Source: an uncultured Oscillospiraceae bacterium (lineage in GTDB: Bacteria > Bacillota > Clostridia > Oscillospirales > Oscillospiraceae). From it: DNA of 48,583 nucleotides. Shown here one piece after another: positions 10,699 through 22,701 of this stretch. Under the pieces are notes generated by a model. The model had not been told where the DNA came from, did no database searches, and saw only the letters and a program-made list of their open reading frames with translations. Numbering within the stretch: position 1 is the first letter of the stretch; the number at the start of each line of letters is the position of its first letter. Position numbers and translations under genes: made by a program. The stretch covers positions 1 to 48,583 of the forward strand of contig CALXCW010000003.1 in NCBI GenBank assembly GCA_944386905.1, given 5' to 3'.

Positions 10699-11925
10699 TC
10701 AGTTCTGCAGCAGCGCTTTATGAAATACCTTTTTGCCTTTACGGATCTTGAGCCCAACGCGGAGATCGTCAGCGGTGAACTTTACGTCAATGGTGGGTAC
10801 CTTCTCGTCGTTGACAAACACGCCGCCCTGCTGCACCAACCGCCTCGCTTCGGACTTGCTGGGCGCCAGCTTGCAGGCCAAGAGAAGATCGAGAATGGCA
10901 ATGGAGCCGTCGGTGAGCTGTTCCGCAGCAAGCACCGTAGTGGGCATATCGCTGTCATCGCTGCCGCCGCCGAAAAGGGCCTTGGCCGCGGTCTGGGCTT
11001 TGTCGGCCTCCTCCTGACCGTGCACCAGTTTGGTAAGCTCATAGGCAAGGATGGCTTTGGCCTCGTTGAGCTGGCTGCCCTCCCAACCGGCCATGGCATC
11101 GATTTGTTCCAGTGGCAGGAATGTGAGCATACGGATGCACTTCATCACGTCGGCATCGTCCACGTTGCGCCAGTACTGGTAGAAATCAAAGGGTGAGGTC
11201 TTGTTTGGATCCAGCCATACGGCACCCTTGGCGGTCTTGCCCATCTTCTTGCCCTCGGAGTTGAGGAGGAGGGTGATGGTCATGGCGTGGGCATCCTTGC
11301 CCAACTTACGGCGGATGAGCTCTGTGCCGCCAAGCATGTTCGACCACTGGTCGTTGCCACCGAACTGGAGGTTGCAGCCGTAGTGCTGGTAGAGGTAGTA
11401 AAAGTCGTAGGACTGCATGGGCATGTAGTTGAACTCCAGGAAGCTCAGTCCCTTTTCCATGCGCTGCTTAAAGCACTCGGCGCGGAGCATGTTGTTCACA
11501 GAGAAGCAGGCGCCTACATCCCGAATAAAATCGATGTAGTTGAGTTCCAAGAGCCAATCGGCGTTGTTGACCATCATGGCCTTTCCTTCGCCAAACTCAA
11601 TAAACCGTTCCATCTGCTTCTTGAAGCAGTCACAGTTGTGCTGGATAGTCTCCCGTGTCATCATGGAGCGCATGTCGGTACGACCGGAGGGATCGCCAAT
11701 CATGGCAGTGCCGCCACCGATAAGGGCGATGGGACGATTCCCGGCCATCTGGAGGCGCTTCATCAGGCAAAGGGCCATAAAATGGCCCACGTGGAGAGAG
11801 TCGGCGGTTGGATCAAAGCCGATGTAGAAGGTGGCCTTTCCTTCGTTGATCAGGCGGCTGACCTCTTCTTCGTTGGTCACCTGGGCAATGAGGCCGCGGG
11901 CTACCAGTTCTTCATAAAGTGTCAT
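10699..11925 (-). CDS. tyrS: Tyrosyl-tRNA synthetase
   Basis: Charges tRNA-Tyr. Class I synthetase with HVGH (45-48) for HIGH, GGNDQWSNMLGG for tyrosine binding, KMGKT for the KMSKS loop, and a C-terminal S4 RNA-binding domain (about 345-405, PSKSEARRLVQQGGVFVNDEKV). The ATG at 11925 has AAAGGA upstream and overlaps the stop of the M28 peptidase by 4 nt (ATGA). Both genes sit under a tyrosine T-box (12871-13122). Confidence 0.98.
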   Translation of the reverse strand: MTLYEELVARGLIAQVTNEEEVSRLINEGKATFYIGFDPTADSLHVGHFMALCLMKRLQMAGNRPIALIGGGTAMIGDPSGRTDMRSMMTRETIQHNCDCFKKQMERFIEFGEGKAMMVNNADWLLELNYIDFIRDVGACFSVNNMLRAECFKQRMEKGLSFLEFNYMPMQSYDFYYLYQHYGCNLQFGGNDQWSNMLGGTELIRRKLGKDAHAMTITLLLNSEGKKMGKTAKGAVWLDPNKTSPFDFYQYWRNVDDADVMKCIRMLTFLPLEQIDAMAGWEGSQLNEAKAILAYELTKLVHGQEEADKAQTAAKALFGGGSDDSDMPTTVLAAEQLTDGSIAILDLLLACKLAPSKSEARRLVQQGGVFVNDEKVPTIDVKFTADDLRVGLKIRKGKKVFHKALLQN

Positions 11926-12869
11926 CGATCTGTTCCTTTCTTCGCTTCTTGCTGCGATAGAATCTGAAGGCAGAAAGTACGCAGCAGAAGAATATTTTTT
12001 TCTTCTAGTATGGTATCTTTTGCAGTGTGGATGCGACCTAAATAGAAAATTCCACCTCGAGTTTTGCGCAGAGCCGCAATGCCAACACCCAGAGGAAACT
12101 GCATTTGATCAGAGGGATAGAAGTATACCCCCCTGCCAGCCAAGCGGATCTCCTTCGTCCCGTCCTGCACGCAGCCACTTTGCAGCTGTGCAGCCAGCCG
12201 AGGGTTCTTTTTTACGTTCTTTTTGGGAAAGAGCAGAATATGATCCCCGTCGCCCACGCAGTCGAAATTCAGTACCAGCTGCCGACTGGATGCCTTACGG
12301 TGAGTCCTGCGATAGCCCGCCGAGCCGAAAAGGCCAGCTTCCTCCAGATCGAAAAGGACAAAACAGACGTTTTCACGCTGCTCCTGCGGCAGTACGGCCA
12401 TGAGATCCAGCACCGTGAGGACGCCGGAGGAATTGTCATTGGCATTGGTGGGATTGGCGGGGCCAAAGAGCATGAGAAACAGCAGAAGTAAAAACAGCAC
12501 TTCCGCCGTGACACCGGCTACCAGCGGCTCCCGCACCAAAATCCCAACCGCAATGCCAATCACACTGGGTATCAGGATAATGATAGCACACAGAAACAAC
12601 TGATAGAGAAGATAAATCCACACATGGCAAGGCGTGATAAAATTGGGAATGGGCAGCCTGGCACAGGTATCATAATGAGCGGTGATGAGGTAAGTGGCAT
12701 GCTCGGGATTACCAAATATCACATTTTTAGCGCCAAAGGCCCCAGCTTCTACCTTCCCCGCATAGCCCCGTGCTGCTCCAAAAGCCAGCGCAGCATCACG
12801 AAAGGCCGCCTTCTGTTTTTTGGATTTTCTTACGGGATACTGCTCAATAAGTTCCCGACCAAACAGCAC
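11922..12869 (-). CDS. M28-family zinc peptidase with membrane segments, first gene of the tyrS T-box operon
   Basis: Predicted aminopeptidase-type zinc hydrolase. Metal-site motifs of M28: TAHYDT, NDNSSGVLTVLDL, DLEEAGLFGS (Glu pair), NFDCVGDGD and a late His in LGRIHTAKDT. Between the first two motifs is an insertion with two hydrophobic helices (YLLYQLFLCAIIILI and VTAEVLFLLLLFLMLF), so it is membrane-bound with an uncertain active-site side. The start is GTG at 12869: it follows the T-box terminator, whose 3' strand contains the AGGGGG site. A longer frame to 12920 would translate the T-box itself. Co-regulation with tyrS suggests a role in freeing tyrosine from peptides; that is inference. 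Confidence 0.8.
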   Translation of the reverse strand: MLFGRELIEQYPVRKSKKQKAAFRDAALAFGAARGYAGKVEAGAFGAKNVIFGNPEHATYLITAHYDTCARLPIPNFITPCHVWIYLLYQLFLCAIIILIPSVIGIAVGILVREPLVAGVTAEVLFLLLLFLMLFGPANPTNANDNSSGVLTVLDLMAVLPQEQRENVCFVLFDLEEAGLFGSAGYRRTHRKASSRQLVLNFDCVGDGDHILLFPKKNVKKNPRLAAQLQSGCVQDGTKEIRLAGRGVYFYPSDQMQFPLGVGIAALRKTRGGIFYLGRIHTAKDTILEEKNILLLRTFCLQILSQQEAKKGTDR

Positions 12870-12870
12870 A

Positions 12871-13122
12871 AAATCGCCCCCTGTCCTGTATAGACAGAGG
12901 GCGAAATTTCGCGGTACCACCTCATGTTCGCCGCAGCCTCGCAGTTACGGCCTCACGGAGTCGGAGACTCTCAAGCTATAACGGGCATACCCGGCAAACC
13001 CTACTGCAAATTCAGGCCGCAGCTCCAAGGCGTATTCGGGCAGGGTGTCCGCCTCCTTCCACCAACCGGAGGCTCTCTTGAGGGCAATCACTACCGTACT
13101 CTTCCTTTTCCTCGCTTGTAAC
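12871..13122 (-). promoter_or_regulatory. T-box leader, tyrosine specifier
   Basis: tRNA-sensing antiterminator. On the minus strand: AGAGAG followed by a hairpin with GGTTGGTGGAA (stem I distal part, 13076-13050 region), specifier GAATACGCC with UAC for tyrosine (about 13037-13029), then the T-box GAGGTGGTACCGCG (about 12922-12909) and a terminator stem CGCCCTCTGTC / GACAGGGGGCG followed by ATTTTGT. Uncharged tRNA-Tyr should stabilise the antiterminator and allow M28-tyrS expression. The downstream ribosome binding site lies in the terminator stem. Confidence 0.93.
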
Positions 13123-13128
13123 GACACC

Positions 13129-13157
13129 ATCTTACCAGACACCGGCCTATTTGTCAA
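13129..13157 (-). promoter_or_regulatory. Sigma-A promoter of the T-box operon
   Basis: On the minus strand TTGACA (13157-13152), 17-bp spacer, TAAGAT (13134-13129). It overlaps the recN stop codon. Confidence 0.85.
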
Positions 13158-14806
13158 CCGGAAAGCATCTCTTCAGCGCTGCGCAGCGTTGTTTCCGTAA
13201 TCTCGGCACCGCCGATGATCCGCGCAATCTCCCGCGTCCGGCCAACATGATCCAGGGCCGTCACTTGGGTATAGGTTCTCCCCTGCCGCTCAGATTTGGC
13301 GATGAGCAAGTGCACATCTGCTGCTGCGGCAATCTGGGGAAGATGGGTGACACAAAGTACCTGCTTGCTGCGAGAGACGCTGCGGAGCTTCTCGGCCACC
13401 TTCTGTGCGGCACGGCCACTGACGCCGGCGTCTACCTCGTCAAAAATCAGCGTTCCTACCTGATCCTGCTCAGCAAGCACATTTTTGATGGCCAACATAA
13501 TTCGCGCCAACTCACCGCCGGAGGCCACCTTACTCAGCGGTTTGAGCGCCTCGCCCACATTAGCCGTCATCAAAAATCGAAGCTGATCCATACCTGTGGG
13601 TGAAAGGGGGATCTCCTCCAACTCGCAGACAAATTGGGCGCGGGGCATGTCTAATGCGGCGAGCTCCGCAGAGAGCCGTCGTTCCATCTCGCTGGCTGCA
13701 GCCTGCCGCGTCTTGCGCAGGGCAAGGCCGGCCGCCTCAGCGTTAGTCGTCGCCGCCTGGAGCTCCGCATCCAGCATCTCAAGCCGCTCCTCGGAAAAGG
13801 TAATCTCGTCCAGTTCCTTCCTGGCTTTCTCGGCATATTGAAGGATCTCATCCACACTGCCGCCGTACTTTCGCTTCAACCGATGCAGTATATCCAGACG
13901 GATCTCGATTTGCTCCAACTCATCACCGGAGTAAGCCAACTGTTCCAGTCGGTCTCGAAGCTCTTCCGCGATGTCTTGGGCCTCACACTGAAGGGCAGAG
14001 ATGCGCTCTGCAAAAGGCTGGAGGGTTTCATCAAAACGGATTATGCGGGCAAGGCTATGTTCTGCTTCCCCCAGAAGATCCGCAGCACCGGACGTCTCTT
14101 CGCCGCCATAGAGAGCTTCCACGGCCGAGGCCAGGTATTCAGAGAGCTTTTCGGCGTTTTGAAGGCGCTTGCGCCGCTGTTCCAAGTCCTCATCCTCGCC
14201 CACCTGCAACTGGGCACGACCAATCTCCTCCAACTGATACTCCAAAGCCTCCACCCGGCGGAGTTTTTCGCCTTCGTCCATGGAAAGACGCTCCTTCTCC
14301 CCGCGCAGTGCTTGCACTCGTGCAAAAGCCGCGTCGTACGCCGCCCGGGCAGCGTCATTGCGTGCAAAAAGATCCAGATACCCCAAATGCTTTGTCTCGT
14401 CAAAGAGCTGTTGAGAATCGTGCTGACCATGGATATTTACCAGCAGGCTCCCCAGGCGCTTTAAGATCGCCACGGTGACTGGTCTTCCGTTAACGCGGCA
14501 GACATTCTTGCCGTCGGCGTAGATCTCCCGCTGTACTAAGAGCTCTGCCCCATCATAAGGCACTCGATTGTCCGAAAACCACGAAAGCTCAGGCACACCG
14601 GCAAACACGGCGCTTACAAAGGCCCGATCTGCCCCGGTGCGGATCACATCGCGGTAGGTGCGCTCCCCCAGGATGGCAGAAATGGCGTCGATCACAATGG
14701 ATTTGCCGGCGCCGGTTTCGCCGGTGAGAACATTAAAGCCCTTTTCAAAAGGAATCTCTGCCTGCTCAATAACGGCGATGTTCTCGATGTGGAGCAAGCT
14801 AAGCAT
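13154..14806 (-). CDS. recN: DNA repair protein RecN
   Basis: SMC-like ATPase for double-strand break repair. Walker A GETGAGKS (29-36), long coiled-coil arms in the middle (about 150-370), C-terminal ABC signature SGGELARIMLAIK and Walker B TLIFDEVDAGVSG. The length of 550 is normal. ATG at 14806 with GGGAGGG upstream. Last gene of the oapA-dxs-tlyA-nadK-argR-recN series. Confidence 0.97.
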   Translation of the reverse strand: MLSLLHIENIAVIEQAEIPFEKGFNVLTGETGAGKSIVIDAISAILGERTYRDVIRTGADRAFVSAVFAGVPELSWFSDNRVPYDGAELLVQREIYADGKNVCRVNGRPVTVAILKRLGSLLVNIHGQHDSQQLFDETKHLGYLDLFARNDAARAAYDAAFARVQALRGEKERLSMDEGEKLRRVEALEYQLEEIGRAQLQVGEDEDLEQRRKRLQNAEKLSEYLASAVEALYGGEETSGAADLLGEAEHSLARIIRFDETLQPFAERISALQCEAQDIAEELRDRLEQLAYSGDELEQIEIRLDILHRLKRKYGGSVDEILQYAEKARKELDEITFSEERLEMLDAELQAATTNAEAAGLALRKTRQAAASEMERRLSAELAALDMPRAQFVCELEEIPLSPTGMDQLRFLMTANVGEALKPLSKVASGGELARIMLAIKNVLAEQDQVGTLIFDEVDAGVSGRAAQKVAEKLRSVSRSKQVLCVTHLPQIAAAADVHLLIAKSERQGRTYTQVTALDHVGRTREIARIIGGAEITETTLRSAEEMLSG

Positions 14807-14821: not shown

Positions 14822-15274
14822 TCAGCTGATCTGCTTTTTGATATCGGCGCACATTGCCGCAGCGGCAGGGGTGTCCCGCATGAGCAAAAATGCTGTGTCG
14901 TCCCCGGCCAGGGTGCCGACGATCATCTCAATATTCATCGAATCCATGGCAGAGCATGCAGCAGATGCCAGTCCCGGCATGGTTTTCATCACCACAATGT
15001 TTTGCGCATAGTCGCAGGAAACCACACACTGGCGGAAGATACTGTGGAGCTTTGCGGCGGCGTTGCTCTCCAGCTGCTTTGGCACAGTGCTGTAGCGGTA
15101 ACTGCCGTTCTCTCCCAGCTCTTTGATGATGCGTAGCTCCTTGATATCCCGGGAGATGGTAGCCTGGGTCGTGGCAAAGCCACATGCCTCCAACTCCTGT
15201 AGGAGCTGCTCTTGCGTCTCGATATCCTTGCTCTCAATGAGCTCCAAAATCTTGGCCTGTCTGTTGGGTTTCAT
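14822..15274 (-). CDS. argR: Arginine repressor ArgR/AhrC
   Basis: Arginine-responsive regulator of arginine biosynthesis and catabolism. N-terminal winged helix (MKPNRQAKILELIESKDI, then TTQATISRDIKEL) and C-terminal trimerisation and arginine-binding domain with GTLAGDDTAFLLMRD. 150 residues as expected. AAGGAG site 7 nt upstream. Placement next to nadK and recN is the standard Firmicutes order. Confidence 0.97.
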   Translation of the reverse strand: MKPNRQAKILELIESKDIETQEQLLQELEACGFATTQATISRDIKELRIIKELGENGSYRYSTVPKQLESNAAAKLHSIFRQCVVSCDYAQNIVVMKTMPGLASAACSAMDSMNIEMIVGTLAGDDTAFLLMRDTPAAAAMCADIKKQIS

Positions 15275-15285
15275 GGCAACGCTCC

Positions 15286-16146
15286 TTATGGCATGTAGAA
15301 TTTGTTGTTGATGATCTGATAGAAACTGGTATCTTTCAAGCGCACCAGCCGCGTCTCTTGCTCAGCTTTGCGGATGGTGACCACATCGCCCACATTGAGC
15401 CGGAAAGCTCTGCCGCCGTCCACAGAGAGAAATGCGTTGCGCCGTCCAAGCTTACCCAATTTCACAGAAACGGTGCGCCAGGGTGCAGTGACAATGCTCT
15501 TGGCCTGGATCGCGTGGGCACAGATGGGCGTAATAATGATATTCTGCGCGGAAGGCTCCACAATGGGGCCGCCTGCGGACATGGAATAGGCTGTAGAACC
15601 GGTAGGTGTGCTGACGATAACGCCATCGCCAGAGAACGCCGTGGCCTCCACGCCGTCGCACTCCACAGACAGCTGTATCACCCTGGCCACAGCACCCTTG
15701 GTGATGGCTGCATCATTTAAGCCGATTTCATCGAAGAGCACCTTGCCTTCACTCTTCACAGTGACGCGGAGCATCATTCGTTTTTCCACCCGGTAGTCGT
15801 TGGCGGGAAGCCGCGAGAGAAGATTGAGTTCCCCAGCCTCCAGCTCGGCCATAAACCCCATGGTGCCAATGTTTACGCCGAGGATGGGAACATGATGCCG
15901 CGTGGCAATTTTAGATGCGTGCAGGATCGTGCCGTCGCCGCCGAAGCAGATCAGCAAATCCGCAGTCTTGATCTCCCGATGGATGTCGCAGAACTTCACA
16001 CTCTCCGGCAGTTCAAAGCTCTTGTCCACATCAAAGGGCAGGCAGATCTTTGTTTCAGCACCGGCTTTTTGGAGAATGGATACCGCCTGTTCCACATATT
16101 TAAAATTCCGATCCCGATAGGGATTGGGCGTCATAACGATTTTCAT
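15286..16146 (-). CDS. nadK: NAD kinase
   Basis: Phosphorylates NAD to NADP. GGDGT (69-73) is the phosphate-binding catalytic motif; GVNIGTMGFM, LNDAAITKG and the glycine-rich SGDGVIVSTPTGSTAYSMSAGGP are family signatures. 286 residues. GAAAGGG ribosome binding site. Between tlyA and argR. Confidence 0.97.
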   Translation of the reverse strand: MKIVMTPNPYRDRNFKYVEQAVSILQKAGAETKICLPFDVDKSFELPESVKFCDIHREIKTADLLICFGGDGTILHASKIATRHHVPILGVNIGTMGFMAELEAGELNLLSRLPANDYRVEKRMMLRVTVKSEGKVLFDEIGLNDAAITKGAVARVIQLSVECDGVEATAFSGDGVIVSTPTGSTAYSMSAGGPIVEPSAQNIIITPICAHAIQAKSIVTAPWRTVSVKLGKLGRRNAFLSVDGGRAFRLNVGDVVTIRKAEQETRLVRLKDTSFYQIINNKFYMP

Positions 16147-16149
16147 GGG

Positions 16150-16956
16150 TTACCCTTTCAATGCTTCGTGGGCTTGACCGACCAGCGCTGTGAGATCCAC
16201 CTGAACGTCGTCGCCAGGCGTCAGAGTGAGGTGGGCCAGAAACTCAATATTTCCCTCCGGCCCCTTCACCGGGGAATAAGTGAGATTTAAAATGGTAAAG
16301 GAGAGAGATTTGGCTGTGGCCATAAATTCTTCGAGGACGTCGCGGTGTACCGCCGGATCCCGCACCACACCCTTCTTGCCGACGCGCTCCTTCCCAGCTT
16401 CAAACTGAGGCTTTATAAGGCAAAGTACCTGACCGGTTTCGGGCTTGAGCAGGGCGCGAATGGCAGGCAGTACCAGCTTTAAAGAGATAAACGACACGTC
16501 TATCACCGAGAGATCCAGCGGCTCGCCCAACTGCTCCGGCGTCACATAGCGGATATTGGTGCGCTCCATGGTGACTACGCGCGGATCATTACGGATTTTC
16601 CAGGCCAATTGACCGTAACCTACATCGATGGCAAAAACCTTTCTGGCTCCCTGTTGCAAAAGGCAGTCAGTAAAGCCGCCGGTAGAGGCGCCGGAGTCGC
16701 TGCAAACATAGCCGGTGGGATCCACGCCAAAATCCCGAAGCGCCTTTTCCAGCTTGAGGCCGCCACGGCTCACATAGGGGCAGGCATGGCCGCGGACATC
16801 GATTACAGCAGAAGGGTCAAAGCTGGCGCCGGGTTTGTCGACCTTCTGTCCATCTACAAAAACCTCGCCGCTCATAATGATGGCCTGCGCCTTGGCGCGG
16901 CTCTCGGCCAATCCCTGCTCAACCAGAAGGACATCCAGCCGCTCTTTATGCTTCAT
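16150..16956 (-). CDS. tlyA: TlyA-family rRNA 2'-O-methyltransferase / hemolysin-like
   Basis: Predicted rRNA ribose methyltransferase. N-terminal S4 domain (ERLDVLLVEQGLAESRAKAQ) and a SAM-binding Rossmann domain with DSGASTGGFTDCLLQQGA, IDVGYGQLAWK and DVSFISLKLVLP. ATG at 16956 with AAAGGAG upstream gives 268 residues; the longer frame overlaps dxs further. It overlaps the end of dxs by 11 bp. Confidence 0.95.
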   Translation of the reverse strand: MKHKERLDVLLVEQGLAESRAKAQAIIMSGEVFVDGQKVDKPGASFDPSAVIDVRGHACPYVSRGGLKLEKALRDFGVDPTGYVCSDSGASTGGFTDCLLQQGARKVFAIDVGYGQLAWKIRNDPRVVTMERTNIRYVTPEQLGEPLDLSVIDVSFISLKLVLPAIRALLKPETGQVLCLIKPQFEAGKERVGKKGVVRDPAVHRDVLEEFMATAKSLSFTILNLTYSPVKGPEGNIEFLAHLTLTPGDDVQVDLTALVGQAHEALKG

Positions 16957-18793
16957 GGGCCAACAACTCCTTTGCCGCTTGATAAATGCCGTCTGCGTCA
17001 AGCCCAACGCGGTGACGCAGCAGCGCCGTGGCGCCGTGGGGAACCAGGCCAGATTGCAGGTTCAAAAGGCGCATGGCCCGCGGCATTTTACCCGTCTGGG
17101 CCAGCCTGGCGGCCACGGCTTCGCCCAGACTGCCGGCCGCTGCGGCCTCTTCCACTACCAAAATCCGGCCTGTTGCGGCCAGAGAGGCCTCCACCGCATC
17201 CAGCTCTAGGGGAAGAAGCCGGTCGAGTTTGATGACATCTGCGGCGATTGCGTCATTCGAGAGACGGCGCACCGCAGCAAGAACGTCATTGATCGTAATT
17301 CCATAGGTGAGAATAGTAAGTTGAGCACCCTCAATCCGCTGATCAATCCATTGGCTCTGGGAATATTCACCATCGCCACCGCGGGGATAGCGAACTGCCA
17401 CCGGCCCGGTAGACTGCCAAAGTGCCAGGCGAAGCATGCGCCGTAGCTCAGCCTGACTGGCAGGACAGTAGATCTCCATGCCGGGAACCTGGCGCAGATA
17501 GCCAACGTCAAAGACGCCATGGTGGGTCTCGCCATCCTCCCCAACCAGTCCAGCCCGATCCACAGCCAGCACCACATGGAGACCCAAAAGCCCCAAATCC
17601 TGCTGGAGCATATCAAAACTTCGCTGCAAAAAGGTGGAGTAGACCGCGAAAACCGGTAAAAGCCCCTGCTTGGCGAGACCTGCAGCCATGGAAACCGCGT
17701 GGCCTTCGGCAATTCCCACATCAAAGTAACGATCTTTGAAACTGGCGGCAAATTGGCTCAAGCCGGTGCCCTGCTCCATCGCAGCGGTGATCGCGCAGAT
17801 GCGCTTGTCTTCGATGGCTGCCTCGCACAGCGCTTTGCCGAAAGTCTCGGAAAAGCACATGCTGCTCATGCCGTTGCTCAAACCTGTCAACGGGTCAAAT
17901 CGGCCAACGCCGTGGTATTTCGAAGGCTTCACCTCAGCGGGGATGTACCCCTTCCCCTTCTTGGTGATGACATGGAGCAGCACAGGGCCGCCCATGTCTC
18001 GTGCTTCTTTGAGAAGAAAAGTGAGCCTGTCCACATTATGGCCGTCCACCGGCCCTAGATACGTAAAGCCCATCTCTTCAAAAATGGTCACACCGATGAG
18101 GCGGCGGCGCAGCCAGGCTTTGAGATTGTGCGTGCAGCGGTAGAGCGTTTCACCACCAGGGAGCTTTCGTGTCAATTGACGGTAGACCTTTTTTAGTCCG
18201 AAATAGCCAGGCTTGAGGCGCAGAAGTTTCAAATGGCGGGAAATCGCACCGACATTGGAGGTAATAGACATCCCGTTATCATTGAGCACTACCACCAACG
18301 GCTCGCCACTTGCTCCGGCATCGTTAAGACCCTCATAGGCCAGACCACCGGTGAGAGCGCCATCGCCCAGCACTGCTGCTACATGATAATTTTGGCCGGA
18401 AAGGGTTCGTGCCCGAGCCATGCCTAGGGCGACCGACACGGATTCCGAGGCGTGGCCGGCAATAAAGGCGTCATGCTCGCTCTCTCCAGGCTTTGGGAAT
18501 CCTGCCAGTCCGCCGTAAGTGCGCATGGTGGAAAATCGATCCATTCGCCCCGTAAGAATTTTATGGACATAGGACTGATGCCCCACGTCAAAGAGAAGCC
18601 GGTCTTGCGCCGTATCATAGACCTTGTGGAGCGCCACCGTCAGCTCCACAACCCCTAAGTTAGAGGCAAGATGACCACCGGTCTTGGCAACGTGGCGCAC
18701 TAAAAATTCGCGAATCTCGCCACAGAGCTGACGATCCTCCTGGGGCGACAGGCGCAGAAGATCTTCCCGGCTATGAATGTGATTAAGTAGCAT
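16946..18793 (-). CDS. dxs: 1-deoxy-D-xylulose-5-phosphate synthase
   Basis: First enzyme of the MEP isoprenoid pathway; joins pyruvate and glyceraldehyde 3-phosphate. Thiamine diphosphate site GDGALTGGLAYEGLN and later NDNGMSI; FDVGHQSYVHKILTGR; C-terminal transketolase domain with DVGIAEGHAVSMAAGLA and DRAGLVGEDGETHHGVFD. 615 residues. The ATG at 18793 is preferred over 18799 because GGGAG lies 6 nt before it but directly abuts the other. Follows oapA by 12 nt. Confidence 0.97.
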   Translation of the reverse strand: MLLNHIHSREDLLRLSPQEDRQLCGEIREFLVRHVAKTGGHLASNLGVVELTVALHKVYDTAQDRLLFDVGHQSYVHKILTGRMDRFSTMRTYGGLAGFPKPGESEHDAFIAGHASESVSVALGMARARTLSGQNYHVAAVLGDGALTGGLAYEGLNDAGASGEPLVVVLNDNGMSITSNVGAISRHLKLLRLKPGYFGLKKVYRQLTRKLPGGETLYRCTHNLKAWLRRRLIGVTIFEEMGFTYLGPVDGHNVDRLTFLLKEARDMGGPVLLHVITKKGKGYIPAEVKPSKYHGVGRFDPLTGLSNGMSSMCFSETFGKALCEAAIEDKRICAITAAMEQGTGLSQFAASFKDRYFDVGIAEGHAVSMAAGLAKQGLLPVFAVYSTFLQRSFDMLQQDLGLLGLHVVLAVDRAGLVGEDGETHHGVFDVGYLRQVPGMEIYCPASQAELRRMLRLALWQSTGPVAVRYPRGGDGEYSQSQWIDQRIEGAQLTILTYGITINDVLAAVRRLSNDAIAADVIKLDRLLPLELDAVEASLAATGRILVVEEAAAAGSLGEAVAARLAQTGKMPRAMRLLNLQSGLVPHGATALLRHRVGLDADGIYQAAKELLAHEA

Positions 18794-18805
18794 AGACATC
18801 TCCCG

Positions 18806-19402
18806 TCACCCGGCCCGATGGGCGCGGAAGAGCCGCGCGGGCAGGGATTTTACGGCGTAGATCACCTTGGCCGACGCATGGATGATGACCGTGGAGTTGT
18901 TCATAGCGATGGACTTTCCGAAGGCCTTGCCGCCCACAGTAATGGCTGCCACCACCGCCGACATCAGAAGCTGTACCACCCGACCCAACACAGGCTCCAT
19001 GCCGACGATGGCTCGGGCTGCGATGACAGCCGAAGCTGAGCCGGAGATGACCCCGCAAATATCACCCACCACATCGTTGCAAAATGAGGAAACCCGCTCT
19101 GCATTGCGCAGGAGCCGCAGCGCTTCCTTTGCCTCCGGCATTTTTTTCGCGGCCATGGAGTGAAAGGGTTTTTCATCGGCCGCTGTCACCGACACACCGA
19201 TGATATCAAAAACAATACCGATAAGGACGATGACAAAGAGCACAAAGAAGGACAGCGCCAGTGTGCCGCCAGACAAGAGCTCATTGGAAAAGAAGCTCAT
19301 GGAAGCAGAGATTCCGATGGTTGCAGCGAAAATTGAAGTAATCCAATGCCAATCCGGTCGGATTTTTAACGCTTTACGCTTATTTCCATCGCTGCGTTTC
19401 AC
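18806..19402 (-). CDS. oapA: OLE-associated protein OapA (membrane protein)
   Basis: Small membrane protein that binds OLE RNA and forms a membrane-located ribonucleoprotein linked in Bacillus halodurans to tolerance of alcohol and cold and to magnesium homeostasis. Hydrophobic helices lie near residues 21-38 and 48-66, with more beyond 111. The conserved core FDIIGVSVTAADEKPFHSMA then SSFCNDVVGDICGVISGSAS is the DUF21/CorB-like OapA signature as I know it. The GTG at 19402 has AGGAGG 6 nt upstream; the longer frame to 19567 would run into the RNA gene. Immediate position after the OLE RNA and before dxs is diagnostic. Confidence 0.88.
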   Translation of the reverse strand: MKRSDGNKRKALKIRPDWHWITSIFAATIGISASMSFFSNELLSGGTLALSFFVLFVIVLIGIVFDIIGVSVTAADEKPFHSMAAKKMPEAKEALRLLRNAERVSSFCNDVVGDICGVISGSASAVIAARAIVGMEPVLGRVVQLLMSAVVAAITVGGKAFGKSIAMNNSTVIIHASAKVIYAVKSLPARLFRAHRAG

Positions 19403-19424
19403 GGCGCCCCTCCTCTTCTGTTCA

Positions 19425-20062
19425 AAAAAATAATGGCGGCAGGCAAGATTAAACTTACGGCTTAGGTCGGGTAGGATTTCCCCAGGCGCTGCTCCCCGTC
19501 GCCGGCGGAGTGGTTTCCCATCAAAGCTCCCGTCTTTCCGTCGCCAAGAAAGCGACCCGATTGCCACTTAGTCCGTACTGCAATCCCTTACCTGCCCAGT
19601 GTGACAGCCTAGGTGATTTCCACAGCAGCGCCCTCCGACTCTTATCCTCTTTTGCAAGCAGGCTTTCGAGCGGCAATATCATGCGCACCCCTGGCCGGGG
19701 GTTTGCATGCCTGACACCGCTTTCCCGATCTGCTCACGCAAGGCAGGCTACTCTGCACACAGCGTTCCGGCAAGCCTTCACACCGCAATACAGGTTCACA
19801 TCCTGCCTCGTACAGAAGTCGCTGACCACTAAGGGAGTACGCCTCTGCACAATAGCAGGTCTCCGCAGCGGCAGGGTCGGGATCCTCATGCCATTGAGGG
19901 TCGCCCTTCCGCCGCAGGCGTAATTGCTACGCCTTCCTCCAGCACTCACCCCAAACTGGGCGTAAGAAGCAAGCACCAAAGGTTTCACAGTTATGCCCTT
20001 TAAAGGATTTTTAGGCCCTTCCTGGGAGCCGGCGGCGCTGACTAGGATACTGCGCCATTATT
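19425..20062 (-). ncRNA. ole: OLE RNA (ornate, large, extremophilic)
   Basis: A gap of about 650 nt with no credible protein gene, GC-rich against its AT-rich flank and full of hairpins, for example GGCGTA/TACGCC (19917-19922/19928-19933), ACCCC/GGGGT around 19690-19705, and GTCGC/GCGAC near 19545. A promoter with the start expected at about 20062 precedes it, and oapA follows. OLE RNA is about 600 nt, occurs in Firmicutes in the isoprenoid operon between ispA and dxs, and is followed by oapA; size, place and neighbour agree. Ends are approximate. Identification rests mainly on context and structure, since no covariance search was run. Confidence 0.87.
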
Positions 20063-20068
20063 TTTAAC

Positions 20069-20097
20069 AGTATATCACAATATTCATGGATATACAA
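20069..20097 (-). promoter_or_regulatory. Sigma-A promoter of the OLE-oapA-dxs operon
   Basis: On the minus strand TTGTAT (20097-20092), 17-bp spacer, TATACT (20074-20069). The transcript would start near 20062, at the left limit of the structured region. Confidence 0.75.
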
Positions 20098-20452: not shown

Positions 20453-20683
20453 TTAGGAGATACTTTTCTGCCACGCAATCGATAGCCGAGACACAATTTT
20501 GAGAAAGGTCAAGTAAATTTCAGGCTCATATTCCTTGGCTTCTTTGAGAGTACGCGTCTTATCAGCCCAGATGATGCGCCAGACACTGTATGGTTCCCCG
20601 TCCTCCTCGTGGCAGAGCTGCTTGACCTCCGCAGGCGCTAGGGAACCCATTGCCTTTATGATTTTAAGGAGTGCCGTCACCAT
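20453..20683 (-). CDS. Small hypothetical protein, doubtful
   Basis: A 76-codon frame after the ispH-S1 terminator, MVTALLKIIKAMG to LSIAWQKSIS. GGAGG lies only 1 nt from the ATG and 4 nt from the following GTG, which is poor spacing. It would be expressed only by read-through, as the terminator ends a few bases upstream. No family recognised; may belong with the remnant at 20298-20435. Confidence 0.25.
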   Translation of the reverse strand: MVTALLKIIKAMGSLAPAEVKQLCHEEDGEPYSVWRIIWADKTRTLKEAKEYEPEIYLTFLKIVSRLSIAWQKSIS

Positions 20684-20689
20684 TCCTCC

Positions 20690-20722
20690 GAAAAAGCGGG
20701 CCGCCTCCTGAGGGAGGCGGCC
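20690..20722 (-). terminator. Rho-independent terminator of the cmk-plsC-ispH operon
   Basis: Perfect 10-bp stem GGCCGCCTCC (20699-20708) / GGAGGCGGCC (20713-20722) with a 4-nt loop; on the minus strand it is followed by CGC and five T residues. It starts 24 nt after the ispH-S1 stop. Confidence 0.92.
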
Positions 20723-20745
20723 TAACATACTATTAGAGATTGGAA

Positions 20746-22701
20746 TTACTCCGCGTCGTCGGATGCGGCATCATCCTCGGCTGCGGTGAGCAGCGCACGG
20801 ATGGACAGACTGATGCGCTTGTTCTCAGCATCAATATCAATAATCTTAGCATCCACTTCCTGACCCTCAGAGAGCACGTCCTCGGGCTTACCAATGCGGC
20901 GGTCGGCAATCTGAGAAATGTGGATCAAGCCGTCCACACCGGGGATAATCTCAGCAAAGGCACCGAAGGTCATCAGCTTAACAATCTTGACCTTGGCCAC
21001 ATCGCCGATCTTGAACTGGTTCATGAAGATCGTCCAGGGGTTGGTTTCGGGAGTCTTGTAACCCAGGGAGATCTTCTTCTTCTCAGGATCATAGGAGATG
21101 ACAAAGACTTCGATCTCATCGCCAACCTTGACAACCTCGGCGGGGTTCTTGATGCGGTTCCAGGACAGCTCGGAGACGTGCACCATGCCGTCCACACCAC
21201 CGATGTCCACAAAAGCGCCGTAAGAGGTGAGGCTCTTGACCACACCGGTGTACTTCTTGCCGACCTCAATCTCGGCCCAGATTTTCTCCTGTGCAGCCTT
21301 GCGCAGCTCGTTGGTCACGGCACGGATGGAACCGACCACACGGCGGCGAGCACGGTTGACTTCGGTAATCTTCATCTGCACCGTGGTCTTGACCAGAGCA
21401 GACAGATCACCACCCTTGGGCACACCGGTCTGAGAGGCGGGGATAAACACGCGGACACCCTTGACATTGGCCACAATGCCGCCCTTGTTCTCCTCGGTGA
21501 TCAAACCTTCAACAACGGCCTTGCTCTCAGCAGCGGCCTCAATCTCTTCCCAAGCCTTGCCGGCCTCCAGGCGCTTCTTGGACAGACGTGCAGTGCCCTC
21601 GGAATCGTTGACATGCACCACCAGCACCTCAATCTCATCGCCGACTTTCAAAACATCTTCCGGCTTCACGGAAGGATCGGAGCTGAAATCATCAACAGGG
21701 ATATAACCTGCGTGCTTTGTACCCAGGTCCACCTGAATCTCGGTGGCGCCAATGGCAGTTACAATGCCTGTGACCTTATCTCCGTTATTTAAAGTCTTGA
21801 TAGACTGCTCGAGAAGCTCGGCAAAGTCCTCCTCCTGGGCAGTTTCAACCTTGATTTCTTCGCTCATTATGTTGTTGACCTCCTTTATTATCCACGCCGG
21901 GGTGGACGCCCCCGCCGTGATACCAACAGAATCCGCATAAGAAAAATGCGATACGTCCAGTTCACGGGCATCTTCCACCAGCACAACATCCTTACAGTGC
22001 TGCCTACAGATCATAGCAAGCCGCTTGGTGTTGGAGCTCATGGAATCGCCTATGACAACCATCGCATCGCAGCTTTGAGATAACTCGTTTGCTTCCTTCT
22101 GCCTATTTTCTGTTGCTTCGCATATTGTATCAAAAATTTCTCCGTTTGTACACTCTTTTTTTATAATTTTCCTGCAACTTTCCCATAATTTCTGTGTGCT
22201 CGTAGTCTGGGCGACCATAGTGATGGGCGCTGAGGCCCATTTGGGGTCGCTCATAAGCCAAGCCTCCAGTTCCTCAGGCGTTTCAAAGACCTGTGGCCTA
22301 CTACACCAACCGGCGATTGCCTGAACTTCCGGATGCGTGGGTGTGCCGATGATGACCGGCGTGCGCCCCTGTTCCTCCGCTCGAATCACCAGCTTATGAA
22401 TACGCTTGACAAAAGGACAGGTGGCGTCCACAATTTCGACACCCTGAGCCTGGAGTCGCTCATAGACATCCCGGGATACGCCGTGGGAGCGGATGACAAC
22501 GGTGCTCCCGGGACGAGCCTCCTCAGGCGCGGAGAGCTCCAAAACGCCCTTGCTGGCAAAATAGTCCATCACATGGCGATTGTGGATGATGGGCCCCAGC
22601 GTGGCAACTTCCTTCCCTGCTGCTGCGGCCTCCTCCACCAACGATACGGCTCGATCCACACCGAAACAAAAGCCGGCGGTTTTTGCCAAAGTCAGTTTCA
22701 C
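20746..22701 (-). CDS. ispH: IspH (HMB-PP reductase) fused to ribosomal protein S1 repeats
   Basis: Two proteins in one chain of 651 residues. Residues 1-280 are IspH, the [4Fe-4S] enzyme that makes IPP and DMAPP at the end of the MEP pathway, with cluster cysteines C12 (AGFCFGVDRA), C95 (VDATCPFV) and C194 (TICEATENRQ). From about 300 follow four S1 RNA-binding repeats; the last two (YTGVVKSLTSYGAFVDIGG and VAKVKIVKLMTFGAFAEI) are the most regular. This fusion is known in Clostridia. The GTG at 22701 overlaps the plsC stop (GTGA). At the junction, M279 is preceded by AAAGGAGG (21886-21879) 11 nt upstream, so a free S1 protein could also be made. Confidence 0.96.
   Translation of the reverse strand: MKLTLAKTAGFCFGVDRAVSLVEEAAAAGKEVATLGPIIHNRHVMDYFASKGVLELSAPEEARPGSTVVIRSHGVSRDVYERLQAQGVEIVDATCPFVKRIHKLVIRAEEQGRTPVIIGTPTHPEVQAIAGWCSRPQVFETPEELEAWLMSDPKWASAPITMVAQTTSTQKLWESCRKIIKKECTNGEIFDTICEATENRQKEANELSQSCDAMVVIGDSMSSNTKRLAMICRQHCKDVVLVEDARELDVSHFSYADSVGITAGASTPAWIIKEVNNIMSEEIKVETAQEEDFAELLEQSIKTLNNGDKVTGIVTAIGATEIQVDLGTKHAGYIPVDDFSSDPSVKPEDVLKVGDEIEVLVVHVNDSEGTARLSKKRLEAGKAWEEIEAAAESKAVVEGLITEENKGGIVANVKGVRVFIPASQTGVPKGGDLSALVKTTVQMKITEVNRARRRVVGSIRAVTNELRKAAQEKIWAEIEVGKKYTGVVKSLTSYGAFVDIGGVDGMVHVSELSWNRIKNPAEVVKVGDEIEVFVISYDPEKKKISLGYKTPETNPWTIFMNQFKIGDVAKVKIVKLMTFGAFAEIIPGVDGLIHISQIADRRIGKPEDVLSEGQEVDAKIIDIDAENKRISLSIRALLTAAEDDAASDDAE
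21879..21886 (-). promoter_or_regulatory. Internal Shine-Dalgarno at the IspH/S1 junction
   Basis: AAAGGAGG on the minus strand, 11 nt before an in-frame ATG (21867) that opens MSEEIKVETAQEED, the usual kind of start for a free S1-like protein. It decides a possible second start within the fusion gene. Confidence 0.6.

Follow-up and report, generated by a model that had tools for sequence, protein, structure and literature searches.

Among structured RNAs of bacteria whose biochemical role is still to be found, OLE, an abundant membrane-associated transcript of about 600 nt, is one of the largest. The stretch of DNA analysed here, from an uncultured Oscillospiraceae bacterium (48,583 nt in all, henceforth the window), holds a gene-free region of about 640 nt followed by genes for a small membrane protein and Dxs. 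This raises the question of whether the region is a complete OLE locus, which partner proteins accompany its RNA, and which of the alternative folds proposed for the OapC-binding region this RNA would adopt.

The OLE RNA and its transcription unit

The gene-free region is a full-length OLE RNA, present in a single copy in the genome. The initial annotation had proposed an OLE–OapA pair at this position and had pointed to the Rfam covariance model as the means of checking it; the RNA matches this model (RF01071, cmscan) end to end, over positions 1–616 of 616, with 419.8 bits (E 5.2e-120) against a gathering cut-off of 50 bits. Further, the same 41 of the 150 family genomes carry OLE and OapA, and the covariance-model score together with this co-occurrence excludes a chance match. 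With oapA lying adjacent to the RNA, the pair is fully confirmed and is an already known system. The locus and its immediate surroundings comprise the following features:

20746–22701: ispH-rpsA fusion gene, upstream of OLE (NF000907)
20699–20722, minus strand: intrinsic terminator behind the ispH-rpsA fusion gene (10-bp stem with 9 GC pairs, U-rich tail)
20069–20097, minus strand: promoter of the ole-oapA-dxs unit (sequence reading, conservation upstream of OLE in relatives)
19417–20074, minus strand: OLE RNA, full length
18806–19402, minus strand: oapA, OLE-associated protein A, 198 aa, GTG start (OLE co-occurrence, CNNM-like fold)
16946–18799, minus strand: dxs, 1-deoxy-D-xylulose-5-phosphate synthase (TIGR00204, 636 bits)
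16150–16959, minus strand: tlyA-type gene with S4 and FtsJ-like methyltransferase domains (PF01728, PF01479)
15286–16146, minus strand: nadK, NAD kinase (NCBIfam NAD kinase models, best 239 bits; all score below their own cut-offs, yet all name one function)
14822–15274, minus strand: argR, arginine repressor (TIGR01529, 136.9 bits)
13154–14806, minus strand: recN (TIGR00634, 542 bits)

Downstream of the RNA the genes follow on the minus strand in the order oapA, dxs, tlyA, nadK, argR and recN. As dxs starts 6 nt past the oapA stop codon and the spacing from oapA through recN amounts to about 15 nt or less, or to small overlaps, a single operon from OLE through recN is plausible. On the other side, transcription of ispH-rpsA is closed by the terminator (20722–20699) ahead of the OLE promoter. 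The extent first given for the locus (18806–20097), its gene order and the core motif of its protein were all borne out on re-reading. The locus shares with OLE loci of the type described for H. halodurans and C. acetobutylicum (RF01071) the full-length model match, the P13/OapB region, the adjacent oapA, the nearby dxs and recN, and an own promoter; indeed, P12.2/P13, the OapB-binding region of OLE, is aligned in the window RNA with just a 1-nt deletion.

The promoter consists of a −35 element TTGTAT (20097–20092), a 17-nt spacer and a −10 element TATACT (20074–20069) on the minus strand, the latter extended by a TGA directly before it. The block CTTGTATATNCATGAATA...TGTGNTATACT is found again immediately 5′ of OLE in about 12 relatives, and a 17-nt pattern has no mismatches at this site, its sole mismatch-free occurrence in the window, where 0.18 matches at up to 3 mismatches are expected by chance. 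A more general scan did not list this site, which falls below the match threshold of that scan, and the case for it hence rests on conservation. This recurrence of the block upstream of OLE in relatives backs the earlier proposal that OLE has its own promoter here, as is also described for the H. halodurans ole gene, there within a larger operon (PMC9723947). Overlapping with this promoter is a conserved dyad-like block, TATNCATGAATA (20081–20097, minus strand). In some relatives it is a perfect palindrome, and it is a possible operator, for which an ArgR box was considered; argR belongs to the same putative operon.

Two further observations concern the neighbourhood. A 91-aa ORF without a family match lies between ispH-rpsA and OLE (20453–20728, minus strand); a homolog with 46% identity occupies the same position in Ca. 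Avoscillospira stercoripullorum (L022), and in another relative (L003) the gap between ispH-rpsA and OLE, the site of this ORF in the window, is just about 135 nt. Beyond recN, a T-box leader (12894–13121, minus strand; 119 bits) is situated upstream of a putative M28-type peptidase ORF (11922–12920) and tyrS (10699–11925); its specifier, read by eye, is UAC (Tyr), and the two genes appear to be under common tyrosine T-box control.

That the window RNA is a degenerate or pseudogene copy is very improbable. Such decay might be read from the long OLE insertions borne by some relatives (e.g., G105 and G111), but the window RNA is matched over its full length with high posterior throughout, its OapA is intact, its promoter is conserved and the sister species G097 has a 403-bit OLE, a conservation that already contradicts this reading. 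The unusually long insertions (L172 of G111, L174 of G105 and L173 of G008), which lie partly in J5/6, go with a total of about 760–840 nt, and in G029 (L108, C28:19811–23534) OLE and OapA are not adjacent but about 2.5 kb apart.

OapA and the other protein partners

The product of oapA is a small membrane protein bearing CNDVVGDICGVISGSAS. It is found in all 41 OLE-bearing genomes among the 150 family genomes searched, and its nearest relatives, at 71–78% identity, come from Candidatus Avoscillospira and other Oscillospiraceae MAGs, many of animal-gut origin, in line with the initial description of the organism as gut-type. No Pfam or NCBIfam family was matched at E 0.001 and a sequence search of solved structures yielded no relevant match; its identification therefore relies on the place next to OLE, on co-occurrence and on the fold. 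An AlphaFold model (mean pLDDT 88) matches the CNNM transmembrane domain of MtCorB (7m1t) with Z 13.1 over 132 residues at 2.6 Å and that of CorC with Z 11.8, with non-CNNM chains reaching at most 7.9. At the sequence level, the window protein scores 16 bits against Pfam CNNM, below the cut-off of 28.4, and sub-threshold matches occur in 40 of 44 OapA relatives (best 9.2e-7). OapA hence consists of a transmembrane domain of CNNM/DUF21-like type and has neither CBS nor CorC domain, and its first assignment as OapA is upheld by the relatives' profile matches and the model alike.

Binding of OapA to OLE RNA in a 2:1 ratio and localisation of the RNA at the membrane have been published for H. halodurans only. 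The window protein shares with known OapA its position adjoining OLE, the CNNM-like fold and the conserved FD..G, CNDVVGD and GGKA.GK motifs, and no notable difference was found between them; the relationship of OapA to MpfA set out in PMC11332333 agrees with this fold. Elsewhere in the genome there is one full-length, MpfA-like CNNM-CBS transporter (L113, 781–2106, minus strand), and a single CNNM transporter alongside OLE fits the published tendency toward "at most one". In one relative (L097/G076, C21:58429–58941) the OapA frame is broken by a single in-frame TGA.

The initial annotation had also asked whether OapB and OapC partners exist elsewhere, and for OapC they do: the genome encodes it (L111, 719–967) upstream of rpsL, with a match to B. 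subtilis YbxF (3v7e) of 53 bits (E 2.3e-13). The OapC profile has an invariant G15. A YlxQ-like copy is a distinct gene after nusA and ylxR, and OapC is the ortholog of YbxF and not of YlxQ. OapB was not found in the assembly (2.0 Mb, 227 contigs), which is 81% complete and also lacks infA, the usual OapB neighbour. In the closed relative G098, the OapB gene is flanked by map and infA, and its product matches the structure of OLE-associated protein B (PDB 7k9b); across the family it is present in 28 of 29 OLE-bearing genomes of at least 90% completeness. The lineage thus resembles the known systems in having an OapC/YbxF ortholog beside rpsL and, in relatives, OapB/YbzG between map and infA. 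Some species with OLE are described in PMC11332333 as having no OapB or no OapC.

The J5/6 hairpin and the k-turn strands

Three mutually exclusive folds have been proposed for the OapC/bS21 region of OLE, namely P5/P6, k-turn 1a and k-turn 1b, and the two k-turns, both put forward as OapC sites, have the J4a/5 strand in common (PMC12054373). K-turn 1a pairs J4a/5 with J5/6 (PMC9723947), and k-turn 1b, in which J4a/5 meets J6/7, is reported from cryo-EM of protein-free C. acetobutylicum OLE (PMC12286853). The window RNA departs from the canonical form in precisely this region, where it has the following elements:

19985–19991, minus strand: J4a/5 k-turn strand, with nt84 = A (19991), nt85 = C (19990), the bulge and GA (comparison with canonical relatives)
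19916–19934, minus strand: P5a, an extra J5/6 hairpin, AGGCGUA(G)/(U)UACGCCU (insert relative to the Rfam model; covariation)
19865–19915, minus strand: P6 with a basal extension, abutting P5a and J6/7 (RNAalifold, pair counts)
19861–19864, minus strand: J6/7 GGAG, the second strand of k-turn 1b

P5a, with A19934–U19916 as its closing pair, is set between P5 and P6, flush against the latter, in place of the canonical J5/6 linker UUAAGG, which is absent. Further differences from the RF01071 type are the extra basal pairs of P6, the lack, on reading of the sequence, of a CCUCCU anti-Shine-Dalgarno mimic in this stem, and a J4a/5 bulge of UGU (19989–19987), followed by GA (19986–19985), instead of GAU. 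Of the OLE segments from Oscillospirales and related loci, 160 are distinct, and 63 of these carry a long J5/6 insert. Covariation, counted on a sequence-only alignment of 43 hairpin-type RNAs, supports the stem: all five counted P5a pairs covary, with 95.8% paired, and double-change cells number 49 against a shuffled mean of 11.6 (0 of 500 shuffles as high). The covariation value is 0.640 as against 0.243 when shuffled, and the signal is gone when the partner strand is slid. The foot of P6 behaves similarly (94.9% paired; 0.614 against 0.293 shuffled).

The accessible text of the OLE papers makes no mention of a J5/6 hairpin, which their figures or supplements may draw; relative to these texts the subclass adds a new, if modest, variant to a known RNA. 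It may be compared with OLE variants 1 (TANB77) and 2 (RF39), in which, according to PMC11332333, P7, P8, P9 and the P13 tip are shortened or lost. All are lineage-specific architectures of uncultured gut Bacillota with partner proteins partly lost; the window RNA differs in matching the model throughout and gaining a J5/6 hairpin, and its relatives differ in retaining OapB.

The consequences for the two k-turns are unequal. The single-stranded J5/6 UUAA-GG that H. halodurans-type k-turn 1a requires opposite J4a/5 UCGAUGAA is not available in the window, whereas both strands required for k-turn 1b, J4a/5 C-NNN-GA and J6/7 GGAG, are present. Indeed, none of the 43 hairpin-type RNAs departs from C85, U and GAA in J4a/5 or from GGAG in J6/7, and the halves of k-turn 1b are kept also in those from genomes without an OapC match. 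All 90 canonical RNAs in which the bulge is readable carry GAU, apart from a single GGU, as against UGU, UUU or GUU in 32 of 37 readable hairpin RNAs. Additionally, nt84 is naturally an A in the window RNA and in many hairpin RNAs; in H. halodurans, OapC binding is reduced by the U84A change (PMC9723947). Inspection by eye of nt84/nt145 (k-turn 1a) in hairpin RNAs revealed no consistent pattern of covariation. GGAAGG still stands at the foot of P5a in the window RNA, and k-turn 1a would on this showing be costlier, not impossible: opening about three basal P5a pairs would free AAG.

On both the OapA tree and the tree of the 3′ half of OLE RNA, the window lineage (the window species and its sister; L001, L109) falls among canonical-junction relatives, and the hairpin may not have arisen only once within the family. 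A hairpin-type 5′ half amid such relatives hints at repeated gain or loss, or at recombination within the RNA gene.

OapC distribution and the competing readings

The simplest reading of these strands is that the hairpin subclass would rely on k-turn 1b. More broadly, we favour, as the probable account, a functional OLE RNP locus with a P5a sub-architecture. Here OapA, as a CNNM-like membrane protein, would anchor the RNA to the membrane as part of a complex that would serve stress and metal homeostasis, as published work suggests. P5a would use up the nucleotides needed for k-turn 1a while both k-turn 1b strands (J4a/5 C...UGA and J6/7 GGAG) stay free; with the former consumed and the latter free and invariant, the RNA would be held in the conformation seen by cryo-EM, to which OapC, where present, would bind, or for which it would be dispensable.

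The distribution of OapC bears on the last point. The hits of an OapC profile, made from 20 proteins, split cleanly within the family. Of 100 genomes with the canonical junction, 87 have OapC, versus 12 of 40 with the hairpin (Fisher 1e-10, uncorrected for the tree), absences being calls of the profile search, some of which may be false in incomplete MAGs; at completeness of at least 90% the figures are 71 of 79 versus 11 of 28. Thus, unlike in the known systems, most hairpin-type relatives have no OapC match. Fifteen hairpin genomes, the closed genome G098 among them, form a supported clade that is entirely without OapC (in G098, the rpoC-ybxF-rpsL site was not found beside the S10 operon), and among family hairpin genomes at least 90% complete OapB is retained in 18 of 18 and OapC in 8 of 18.

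This pattern could be taken to mean that P5a stands in for OapC: with the junction kept in a bound-like form, OapC would then be free to be lost. The counts and the uniform 15-genome clade speak for such a replacement, but the independent events are few, the genomes of three canonical-junction RNAs of family f10 are also without OapC, and hairpin and OapC occur together in the window genome, in eight other family members and in all three members of f8. We regard it as a tentative idea at best, and regard as a little less likely still its stronger form, in which the J5/6 hairpin took over the structural role of OapC in several Oscillospirales lineages, locking k-turn 1b and leaving 1a unneeded. 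A tree-based pair test recovered just two supported independent pairs and the rate test of correlated evolution between hairpin and OapC was not significant (p 0.24 on the OapA tree, p 0.18 on the RNA tree); for these reasons dependence of OapC loss on the hairpin is not claimed, and the relation is an association. The same p-values accord with a plainer alternative, with an appreciable but lesser chance of being right than the k-turn 1b account: an ordinary OLE with a neutral P5a insertion, the loss of OapC having other causes, genome reduction for example. OapC is absent from more than half of the OLE-less family genomes too (69 of 150 have it overall), and length variation of OLE at P7, P8 and P9 is known (PMC11332333). 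However, a neutral insertion accords poorly with the maintenance of P5a across many genera with compensatory changes and zero-length linkers, and with the restriction of J4a/5 bulges other than GAU/GGU to hairpin RNAs.

Returning to the favoured account, in which the hairpin-type RNA would be held in k-turn 1b, these RNAs form a natural subclass with the 1a partner strand sequestered and the 1b strands invariant, and so offer ready-made test molecules for the k-turn question. If the hairpin did take over the role of OapC, k-turn 1a would not be needed for OLE function. A minimal-partner system is offered by G098, a closed genome that combines the hairpin with OapA and OapB and gives no OapC match.
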